Program-made: the position numbers and the translations under genes
Assembly (NCBI GenBank): GCA_023256215.1
Contig: JAGDXB010000096.1
Span: forward strand, 1 to 58,988
Direction: 5' to 3'
DNA from: Vulcanisaeta sp.
Lineage (GTDB): Archaea > Thermoproteota > Thermoprotei > Thermoproteales > Thermocladiaceae
Length of the DNA stretch: 58,988 nucleotides
Shown here: one piece after another, positions 34,781 to 47,170 of the stretch
How positions within the stretch are numbered: the stretch's first letter is position 1
How the letters are laid out: each line of letters opens with the position of its first letter
Notes under the pieces: generated by a model
What the model was told of the DNA's origin: nothing
Database searches by the model: none
Seen by the model: the letters and a program-made list of their open reading frames with translations, nothing else

Positions 34781-35953
34781 TCACATTGTCGTTGCTAACC
34801 AGGTTTTATAAAATAGATCCTTAATGAGTTTACCCAATGGCGATGTTAATATACTATAACAACTGCCCATCCATACTGCCTTATTACTGCTTAAGTCAAG
34901 CTTAATGTCACAGTTAAACATCATACCAACATCACCAAAATCCAGGGCGCACGTCATTGCATTTATTTGAGCAGGATCAACTGGTTGACCAAGTAAATCA
35001 CCGGTAATAGCTGCTGCACTAGCTAATGCCGTAAAATGCACAGGAACACCTGCTGTTGGGAGACCTACGTACGGCATTGAATGCTCACCAGGTAGGTATA
35101 CATCGTCATACTTTAAGCTCCTACCTGTATAGACATTTATTGCAGTCCATTTTCCAGTAGGAGTATCAGCAACTAATGGTGTACCTTCAAAGGGCTTTGG
35201 CAATCTTGCTGGTGGCGTCACAATTAACAGGTCATACTTATACTTTTCACCGTTAGAAAGCGTAACTACCTTTTCCTTATCATCAATAGTAATTGGCGGT
35301 TTAATACCACTTACGCATTCAACTCCTTTTTTAGTGGCAATATTTTCAGATATTTTAACGGCCTCTGGACCTAGTGGCTCTAGGGGTTTGTTAAATGGAT
35401 AGAGCAATGTTATGCTTGTTCTATCTCTAATACCCCTCTTCCTAAACAATGTATCTAATTGACAAGCGAATTCGAAGGGATAAACACCGCACCTATATAT
35501 GGGTTCAGGGGCTACTAAAACGACCTTACCACCAGTGAAAGATCTTAATGCCTCCTTAAGTTTTAATGCGCCATCAAGGGTATAGTTATGGTAACCAACG
35601 CCTAAGTTATAGGACTGGAAGTCATTCTCAACGCCTAGACTCGCTAATAAGTAATCGTAATCAAACTTACCTTGATCTGTCTCCACGACTCTATTATCGG
35701 GATCTATCTTCGTCACCTTGGCCTTAACGAATTTAATACCCCTCCTCTCAAGCAATGATAACGGTAATTGAGCCTTACTGGGTTCTATATCGCCAAGGGC
35801 TATGTTGACAAGCAATGGAGGTAACAAGTAATAATCAGTGTCATTTATTATCGTTATTTCCGCATCGACCCTGCCCCTCAACCTCTCTGCCATTCTTTTA
35901 GCAGCAACAACACCACCCACGCCACCCCCTACGACAAGTATCTTCTTAGGCAC
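34781..35953 (-). CDS. Sulfide:quinone oxidoreductase-like flavoprotein
   Basis: 390 residues. N-terminal FAD motif ILVVGGGVGGVVAAKRM; quinone-reductase Cys near residue 160 (IYRCGVYPFEF) and a second near the C terminus in MTCALDFGDVG. These match the redox cysteines of SQR or flavocytochrome-c sulfide dehydrogenase-type enzymes. It oxidises sulfide (or polysulfide) and passes electrons to quinone at the membrane. An amphipathic C terminus (KLIKDLFYKTWLATTM) supports membrane attachment. TATA near 35978 fits ATG 35953. NADH dehydrogenase type 2 is the alternative, but the Cys pattern favours SQR. Confidence 0.8.
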   Translation of the reverse strand: MPKKILVVGGGVGGVVAAKRMAERLRGRVDAEITIINDTDYYLLPPLLVNIALGDIEPSKAQLPLSLLERRGIKFVKAKVTKIDPDNRVVETDQGKFDYDYLLASLGVENDFQSYNLGVGYHNYTLDGALKLKEALRSFTGGKVVLVAPEPIYRCGVYPFEFACQLDTLFRKRGIRDRTSITLLYPFNKPLEPLGPEAVKISENIATKKGVECVSGIKPPITIDDKEKVVTLSNGEKYKYDLLIVTPPARLPKPFEGTPLVADTPTGKWTAINVYTGRSLKYDDVYLPGEHSMPYVGLPTAGVPVHFTALASAAAITGDLLGQPVDPAQINAMTCALDFGDVGMMFNCDIKLDLSSNKAVWMGSCYSILTSPLGKLIKDLFYKTWLATTM

Positions 35954-36101
35954 GAAGTGTTTTAAAATCTATGTCGCTATTTAAGTATTATTATCAACTA
36001 AACTATGACTTAGAGTACATGCATGAACAAATGAATATTATTAAATATGCCAAAGAATGAAATTAGGTGCAATAGGAATTTAATATGTCATCATTATAAT
36101 T

Positions 36102-36166
36102 ATTGTGGTGATGATGGATCAACAGACTGAGGCTGATGCATGACGAGGGAGGTGAAGACTGACAAT
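36102..36166 (+). ncRNA. Box C/D guide sRNA
   Basis: All four boxes are present in order. C box GTGATGA (36108-36114), 12-nt guide (36115-36126), D' CTGA (36127-36130), 9-nt spacer, C' ATGACGA (36140-36146), 12-nt guide (36147-36158), D CTGA (36159-36162). ATTG (36102-36105) and CAAT (36163-36166) can pair as a terminal stem. A TATA-like TTTAATA lies about 26 bases before the expected start. Equal 12-base guides and near-consensus boxes make this a strong call. It directs 2'-O-methylation with fibrillarin, Nop5 and L7Ae. The two guides match the extreme ends of 16S rRNA, as described in the findings. Confidence 0.85.
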
Positions 36167-36215
36167 CTTTGTTAGAAGTGTTTTTAAGTTCCGTGAATTA
36201 GCATTACGCTAATAC

Positions 36216-37376
36216 ATGAGCCTAAGAACCCTCTTCACAATGTCTATTAGGAATCTTGGAAGTAGAAGATCCAGGGTAATACTCACAATGCTCGCCATTG
36301 TCTATAGTGTGGCATTGATGATTACGCTTGAAACCATGACTTACGGCTTTAAGGTAGCCATAACAAATGAGGTCGAGAATATACTGCCCACGGACCTAAT
36401 GGTCTACTCAGAGAGTGTTTCCATACCTGAGGCGGTGGCGCAGGTCATAGCAAGACTTCCCCATGTCGCCTACGTTGTTCCAGCTATAATAATAAGTACT
36501 GCGCAGGTTAATGGTGAAACAGTTACGTTGATAGGTATACCAAGTCAATACTTCTCGTATTTCGAGGTTCATATGGAAAATGGCTCATTACCCATGAGTA
36601 ACGGTGAAGCCATAGTACAGGATAGTCTGGCAAGTAAGGATGGCATCAGCATTGGAGATACTATATATGTCCAGGTACTTACCGGCATTCAGGGTGGTAC
36701 TGAGGTAATACCACTTAAGGTTACTGGAGTATTTAGTAGTATTTTGGGCGGCTTTCTGGGTTTTCATCTTAACATGATTGTAACACCAATAGGTACACTA
36801 CAGAGTGAGTTGGGTGATGAGGGCTTCGTTAATGCTATGTTTATAAAACTCACGCAGGAAAATCCTGCTTACTTAAGTCAATTAGCCACAGCACTAAGTG
36901 AGTACTTTCCAAACGCAAATGTTTATGAGCAAAGCTCCGTGCTCAGTTCTATCTCTAATGCATTGTCCATGGTAAACCTATTCTTCATAGTCATAATAGC
37001 CCTCAGCCTAATAGTCACTGGCTTAAGTGTGGCTAATACAGCAATAATGAACGTTAGAGAGAGGACTAGGGAGATAGGCATATTAAAGGCGTTAGGTGCC
37101 TCCAATGGTCAGGTAATGATAATATTCCTATTAGAGATCCTCATAATGAGTATAATAGGATCCGTAATAGGCATAGCCCTGGGCATAGCCGGCGCCTACC
37201 TGGCTAGGTACATAATGATAAAGTTGAATGTACCAATAATAATACCCGTAATACTACTACCGGCACTTTACGTATATTCGTTAGTAATCGCTATAATTAC
37301 GTCCGTGGTAGCGTCAATACCATCATTGATATCAATAACCAGGATAAGACCAATGGAAGTACTCAGAATTGAATAA
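36216..37376 (+). CDS. FtsX/MacB-type ABC permease (orphan)
   Basis: 386 residues. First membrane helix near residue 20-45, a large extracytoplasmic MacB-PCD domain (about 50-255), then three C-terminal helices with the motif NVRERTREIGILKALGAS. This is the typical FtsX/LolC/MacB permease. No ABC ATPase is next to it in this window, so it is orphan here. It probably moves a lipid, peptide or signal rather than importing a solute. ATG 36216 follows TTTTTAAG (36180-36187). Confidence 0.85.
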   Translation: MSLRTLFTMSIRNLGSRRSRVILTMLAIVYSVALMITLETMTYGFKVAITNEVENILPTDLMVYSESVSIPEAVAQVIARLPHVAYVVPAIIISTAQVNGETVTLIGIPSQYFSYFEVHMENGSLPMSNGEAIVQDSLASKDGISIGDTIYVQVLTGIQGGTEVIPLKVTGVFSSILGGFLGFHLNMIVTPIGTLQSELGDEGFVNAMFIKLTQENPAYLSQLATALSEYFPNANVYEQSSVLSSISNALSMVNLFFIVIIALSLIVTGLSVANTAIMNVRERTREIGILKALGASNGQVMIIFLLEILIMSIIGSVIGIALGIAGAYLARYIMIKLNVPIIIPVILLPALYVYSLVIAIITSVVASIPSLISITRIRPMEVLRIE

Positions 37377-47077: not shown

Positions 47078-47170
47078 TGGTGGACCGGCCGGGATTTGAA
47101 CCCGGGATCTCCCGCGATTTGGGTTTTAAACTCGCCAAGCGGGCATCCTTCCAGGCTAGACTACCGGCCC
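47078..47170 (-). tRNA. tRNA-Ala (GGC anticodon) with a 16-nt intron
   Basis: Acceptor GGGCCGG pairs with CCGGTCC, giving G3:U70, the alanine identity element. Anticodon arm CCCGC/GCGGG encloses anticodon GGC at 47134-47136. Sixteen bases (47117-47132 on plus) interrupt between positions 37 and 38, the canonical archaeal intron site. T arm CCGGG TTCAAAT CCCGG and encoded CCA are present. Variable loop is AGATC, so position 47 is U. A TATA at 47191-47200 is centred 26 bases upstream. Confidence 0.9.

Follow-up and report, generated by a model that had tools for sequence, protein, structure and literature searches.

The C/D RNA machinery is common to Archaea and eukaryotes. The archaeal C/D sRNAs of the Sulfolobus, Pyrococcus and Pyrobaculum sR families are characterized by boxes C, D', C' and D, by guides of 12 nt and by target nucleotides fixed through the D+5 rule; they have two rRNA targets, are encoded by intergenic genes and drift fast outside their cores. 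Some archaeal C/D sRNAs, among them N. equitans sR15 and sR17, P. calidifontis sR56 and others, have been proposed to act as chaperones that bridge distant rRNA sites (PMC4644070 Table 3). The C/D-type snoRNA U3 of eukaryotes pairs through its box A'/A with nt 6-22 of 18S rRNA, excluding pseudoknot formation (PMC4340053). U3-like RNAs are unknown in Archaea according to reviews (PMC3608112, PMC8339473), and an early claim of an archaeal U3-like RNA was later judged to be an error (PMC3879963).

The sRNA described here, from the hot-spring archaeal genus Vulcanisaeta, shares all of the above features with the sR families and differs from them in its targets, which are the extreme ends of 16S rRNA, the anti-Shine-Dalgarno (anti-SD) sequence included. 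With the bridging sRNAs it has in common two guides whose sites lie far apart along the rRNA and near each other in the fold, on opposite strands of one helix; however, the helices that those RNAs address (h28, h30) exist in the mature ribosome, whereas the end-to-end helix relevant to the Vulcanisaeta sRNA is a predicted pairing of the precursor or a misfolded one. No guide pair for the 16S ends was found in the accessible literature; the Pyrobaculum family tables and the supplements of Dennis et al. 2015 may list single sites. Table 3 of the latter paper (PMC4644070) has 15 entries, none of which joins the 16S ends, and the word 'Shine' is absent from its text and from that of the 2021 review. 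The sRNA resembles U3 in being of C/D type and in that its guide 1, on 16S nt 7-14, covers the 5' strand of the small subunit that enters the central pseudoknot. Unlike U3, it measures about 55 nt rather than 200 or more, lacks the U3 5' domain (boxes A, A' and hinges), pairs through ordinary D and D' guides in an 8-bp duplex set in the methylation register, and makes its second contact with the 16S 3' end. The sRNA is hence no member of the U3 family and the likeness is one of analogy only.

The window, that is the whole stretch of DNA analysed (58,988 nucleotides), harbours the following features in and around the sRNA.

34781-35953, minus strand: NAD(P)/FAD oxidoreductase gene, sulfide:quinone-reductase-like, divergent (Pyr_redox_2, E 4.4e-16)
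36079-36086, plus strand: TATA-like element TTTAATAT, ~26 bases 5' of box C (direct reading)
36108-36114, plus strand: box C, GTGATGA, an exact RUGAUGA; RTGATGA in 12/12 genomes
36115-36126, plus strand: guide 1 (D' guide), TGGATCAACAGA; positions 4-11 against 16S nt 7-14, predicted site U8
36127-36130, plus strand: box D', CTGA; CTGA, CCGA or CGGA in orthologs
between D' (36127-36130) and C' (36140-36146), plus strand: spacer GGCTGATGC
36140-36146, plus strand: box C', ATGACGA; RTGANGA in every ortholog
36147-36158, plus strand: guide 2 (D guide), GGGAGGTGAAGA; positions 4-11 against 16S nt 1504-1511, predicted site C1505
36159-36162, plus strand: box D, CTGA; invariant in 12 genomes
36181-36188, plus strand: promoter-like element TTTTTAAG, 3' of the sRNA (direct reading; putative function)
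36216-37376, plus strand: FtsX/MacB-type permease gene (FtsX, E 2.6e-19; MacB_PCD, E 1.1e-16)

As read from the sequence, positions 36108-36162 (+) form an archaeal C/D box sRNA of canonical dual-guide layout, with a C-to-D core of 55 nt and the order GTGATGA-TGGATCAACAGA-CTGA-GGCTGATGC-ATGACGA-GGGAGGTGAAGA-CTGA: a RUGAUGA box C, a CUGA box D and internal C' and D' boxes. No other strict four-box match occurs on either strand of the window. The gene sits between the divergent sulfide:quinone-reductase-like gene and the permease gene and is presumably expressed. TTTAATAT is probably its own promoter, and the orthologs shown with upstream sequence have TATA-like, AT-rich elements at a similar distance from box C. 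The element TTTTTAAG probably belongs to the promoter of the downstream permease gene; a block, GTTAGAAGYGTTTTTAAG, is kept in several orthologs. Since TTTTTAAG lies 3' of box D, the sRNA is most likely an independent gene, neither the 5' UTR of the permease nor a Shine-Dalgarno (SD) site. At Rfam gathering thresholds the sRNA has no match, and a tRNA is the only hit in the window (RF00005, 51 bits, 47081-47170 on the minus strand); with 90 nt it is long for a tRNA and perhaps contains an intron.

The preliminary description of this DNA had recognized a C/D sRNA with two 12-nt guides and placed it in the Thermoproteales. Both points are upheld, the four canonical boxes being kept in 11 of the 11 other Vulcanisaeta genomes (12/12 with that of the window). 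In the relatives checked the sRNA adjoins the permease gene, matches to which come from Vulcanisaeta records only (84-89% identity). Each guide is 12 nt long in all 12 genomes and lies directly 5' of D' or D. An alignment of the 11 distinct sequences from these genomes reveals conserved guide cores, GGATCAACA in guide 1 and GGAGGTGA in guide 2, with drifting spacers and flanks. Positions 3-6 and 9-11 of guide 1 are invariant, with a single change at each of positions 7 and 8; in guide 2 the whole of positions 4-11 (GGAGGTGA) is invariant. Guide positions 1, 2 and 12 vary, as does the spacer (3-10 nt). The conserved guide blocks are thus the stretches complementary to 16S, position 3 of guide 1 excepted.

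Because matches to 16S and 23S are absent from the MAG that contains the window, the targets were tested in relatives; the six Vulcanisaeta with a full-length 16S do not differ at either 16S end. Positions 4-11 of guide 1 pair with nt 7-14 (GUUGAUCC) at the 5' end through 8 Watson-Crick (WC) bp, and positions 4-11 of guide 2, in an identical register, pair with nt 1504-1511 (UCACCUCC) in the anti-SD through 8 bp and one G:U. The 8-base matches reported in the preliminary description, with a G:U extending the second, are therefore present in real Vulcanisaeta 16S, and its D-box+5 sites, a U in the 5' end and a C in the anti-SD, correspond to U8 and C1505 (predicted Um8 and Cm1505; by our own alignment, roughly U13 and C1533 of E. 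coli). Both D+5 nucleotides are WC paired (A5-U8 and G5-C1505). Two points weigh against these targets: at 8 WC bp the core duplexes fall below the nine-pair rule of Dennis et al. 2015, which is relaxed for double guides (PMC4644070), and the invariant A at position 3 of guide 1 stands opposite a G of 16S.

When each guide is compared with the pre-16S and 23S of its own species, guide 1 has most WC pairs at the 16S 5' end (G004 being an exception and G010 a tie) and guide 2 at the 16S 3' end (G011 being the exception). In G007 the two 16S ends are the best WC matches of both guides across 16S, 23S and 42 tRNAs. The unlikelihood of hitting both ends by chance, asserted earlier, can be expressed in numbers: none of 300,000 random genomic 12-mer pairs from the window gave in-register 8-bp matches at opposite 16S ends, and 4 of 300,000 shuffled guide pairs did. 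As a sequence match, the two-end complementarity exceeds chance.

Competing sites are found in a few species. The preliminary description had treated a longer contiguous match elsewhere as evidence against its targets; this condition applies in part, in that guide 1 forms 9-base runs, G:U included, at 23S ~1320, guide 2 of G011 has a longer match, and a more stable duplex, at 23S ~3015, and guide 1 of G004 fits better at 16S ~790. The ~1320 match is unconserved, and neither 23S site is the best match in any of the other species tested. The site at ~1320, where guide 1 of G010 has about the same stability as at the 16S end, was rejected as a general guide 1 target: its hairpin loop is variable and shows no covariation with the guide, and in G004 it reads GTTGATCC while the guide has changed to GGACCAAC. 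Guide 1 of G011 has one G:U at the 16S 5' end. In G004 (L007; guide 1 TGGACCAACAGT) a T-to-C change places a central mismatch opposite the 16S 5' end and improves the fit at nt ~790 (7 WC + G:U), as if the guide were being retargeted. Targets in tRNA were likewise rejected, as no sense-strand match to the 42 tRNA genes of G007 exceeds 6 WC bp; the two 6-bp sense matches miss guide position 5, and stronger hits lie on the antisense strand. Guide 1 also has a 7-bp, off-register match in the Vulcanisaeta pre-16S leader, about 50 nt upstream of 16S. The leader at that distance (L032) contains GATGATCC, which is similar to the 16S 5' end GTTGATCC and might pair with the 3' GGAUCA instead.

In the mature subunit, helix 1 and the central pseudoknot both draw on the 5' stretch of 16S; the 3' stretch serves as the anti-SD. 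The picture predicted for the Vulcanisaeta precursor is different: leader and trailer form a stem that carries a BHB-like motif (a 4-bp helix with bulges of 2-3 nt and 3 nt) and ends right at the mature ends. The two guide targets flank this processing stem at its base, and mutual pairing between them is predicted (nt 6-18 with nt 1497-1508). Sites ~1,500 nt apart in sequence are adjacent in this fold. In short end constructs of pre-16S, modelled without the remaining 16S and proteins, the penalty for keeping the targets unpaired is 9.8 kcal/mol for both G007 and G011, and 6.9 kcal/mol for G014. The suggestion that the sRNA holds the two 16S ends together or masks the anti-SD during maturation is plausible on these models: a role in maturation gains support from targets that flank the processing stem and can pair mutually. 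The notion of holding the ends together needs refining, since the processing stem already does so and bound guides would rather block pairing of the end strands.

Scans for the guide motifs were extended to other lineages, with a reversed-pattern control that was almost empty. A relative's 16S was substituted where a genome had none of its own (G017, G026, G053, G044, G054, G061, G063, G070), and single GGAGGTGA hits without other boxes were left uncounted, GGAGGTGA being also an SD motif. Three genomes of the sister genus g4 have C/D RNAs with a guide for the 16S 5' end (8-9 WC bp). So does G026 in family f3, whose RNA combines 11 bp to the 5' end with 11 bp to nt 49 of a relative's 16S; from its predicted duplexes the G026 RNA is a classical close double guide. 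The Vulcanisaeta neighbour genes were not found beside the sister-genus and f3 RNAs. Orthology by synteny was accordingly rejected for them, and either a guide swap or convergence may apply. The C/D RNA of G053 (L144, G053:C39:14949-14970) carries GGGATCAACCGG, with 11 WC pairs and 1 G:U to the 5' end of a relative's 16S, and a second guide, GAGTTCAGCCTTGG, with 10 bp to nt 864-874, a few nucleotides ahead of the 3' strand of the central pseudoknot. This RNA is a candidate bridge across the two sides of the pseudoknot region, nearer to U3 than the RNA in the window.

Guides for the anti-SD, with 8 to 12 pairs, are present in C/D-like RNAs of ten genomes (G044, G054, G061, G063, G066, G070, G071, G073, G075 and G079). 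That of G073 pairs at 12/12 positions with its own 16S, and those of G075 (L138, G075:C2:602215) and G079 (L139, G079:C2:180175) read AGGAGGTGATCT and match the whole 16S 3' end, GGAUCACCUCCU, with 11 WC pairs and 1 G:U on their own 16S. In the G075 RNA, the second guide points to the region of the 790 loop (nt ~757; 10 WC + 1 G:U). Six candidates outside the main family have the strict four-box structure, against 0.02 expected from shuffled flanks. In G044, which represents another family of the order, a C/D RNA (L098, G044:C8:57452-57473) carries one guide with 11 bp to nt 24-34 and another with 8 bp + G:U to the anti-SD of relatives' 16S, apparently an independent link between both 16S end regions. 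The preliminary proposal that both ends are the targets is reinforced by conservation of the cores throughout the genus, by the rank of the two ends among rRNA sites and by the independent recurrence of both guides; the comparison with relatives that it called for gives 11/11 Vulcanisaeta and both guides again in other lineages.

A second C/D-like RNA was observed in two Vulcanisaeta (L140, G007:C1:119181-119202; L143, G005:C9:68364-68385). Its guide GAGAGGAGGTGA adjoins CTGA and makes 11 bp with the 16S 3' end, continuing into the trailer (UCACCUCCUCU); for the other guide (GTACGGCTTTG / GTGCGGCTTTG) no clear rRNA target was found. A phylum-wide scan of 398 genomes added seven genomes of genus g36 (L171-L177), in which the motif lies in an element with C/D-like boxes, an anti-SD match (TGGAGGTGATCT) and a covarying hairpin in the flanks (AATGGAG/CTCCATT; AGTGGAG/CTCTACT). 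It may be a C/D RNA, a leader element or something else and is excluded from the C/D RNAs claimed here. The SD site is the confounder for weaker hits elsewhere: L132, L136 and L141 stand without other boxes in coding-like sequence, and L137 is followed by an ATG about 10 nt downstream.

Judged by its sequence, the RNA is a genuine and conserved C/D sRNA whose two guides are directed to the two ends of 16S. Its class, the archaeal C/D sRNAs, is already known and what is unusual is the target pair. It likely directs methylation of U8 and C1505, and it may in addition act as a chaperone that keeps the 16S ends apart, an attractive idea drawn from the fold models. The explanation that we consider best, with a probability of roughly two in three, combines both activities in one dual-guide sRNP. 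The sRNA, presumably assembled with L7Ae, Nop5 and fibrillarin, would bind both 16S ends in the precursor: its D' guide would cover nt 7-14 (5' end) and its D guide nt 1504-1511 (3' end, within the anti-SD). The sRNP would direct 2'-O-methylation of U8 and C1505, and its binding would keep the two strands of the end-to-end helix apart. The helix might thereby be held open until 3'-end trimming and the entry of the 5' strand into the central pseudoknot.

The strongest rival, to which we give a little less than an even chance, is an ordinary two-site guide that methylates U8 and C1505 independently, the joint targeting of the ends being incidental and devoid of chaperoning. Most archaeal C/D sRNAs are indeed dual guides that methylate rRNA (PMC4644070, PMC7994747), and in the sister genus and f3 the 5'-end guide comes with a different second guide, so the ends need not be coupled. 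However, an incidental pair sits less easily with its retention in 12/12 Vulcanisaeta, with the coupling of both end regions in a second lineage through a different 5' guide (G044), and with the predicted mutual pairing of the two targets.

Considerably less probable is that one guide only, guide 2 on the anti-SD, addresses a 16S end, guide 1 having moved or being in the course of moving to 16S nt ~790 (GCUGUUGG). Such a shift would also account for the conserved A at position 3 of guide 1, which stands opposite a G in the 16S 5' end and would pair with a U at nt ~790; the site occurs in four Vulcanisaeta and G014, and the G004 guide raises pairing there to 8 bases as it breaks that at the 5' end. 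Yet the invariant positions 9-11 (GGA) suit the 5' end and not nt ~790, the other 11 Vulcanisaeta genomes have 7-8 WC pairs at the 5' end versus 4-6 at ~790, and G026 and G053 reach 11-12 paired positions at the 5' end.

A further reading, which we regard as improbable, is that of an SD mimic acting on the mature 30S subunit, where guide 2 would occupy the anti-SD and lower SD-dependent initiation. The core GGAGGTGA is an SD sequence that spans the whole anti-SD, but the 5'-end guide and the C/D architecture would be left unexplained, and leaderless mRNAs are common in Thermoproteales. That the locus is no C/D RNA at all, the SD motif GGAGGTGA being an mRNA SD site or chance sequence as in some hits elsewhere that lack other boxes (L132, L136, L141), can practically be dismissed given four boxes and both guides kept in 12 genomes; as an mRNA SD site, the GGAGGTGA of the window was rejected with the next ATG 60 bases off and a promoter-like element between.

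A U3-like role in small-subunit maturation is unknown in Archaea (PMC8339473). The dual-guide sRNP favoured above could be one member of a Thermoproteota class of C/D RNPs that are U3-like in function, grip the pre-16S ends, block their mutual pairing at the processing stem and so time pseudoknot formation, end maturation and the access of the anti-SD to mRNA; this wider proposal is tentative and, in our estimate, rather unlikely as a whole. The sRNA family nonetheless makes the archaeal U3-like question testable, as its RNA is defined and conserved and is predicted to place a methyl group at each 16S end: at the 5' end on the strand to which eukaryotic U3 binds, at the 3' end in the anti-SD. 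Anti-SD guides recur in C/D-like RNAs of several Thermoproteota lineages, which hints that the 16S 3' end may be modified or masked more widely.
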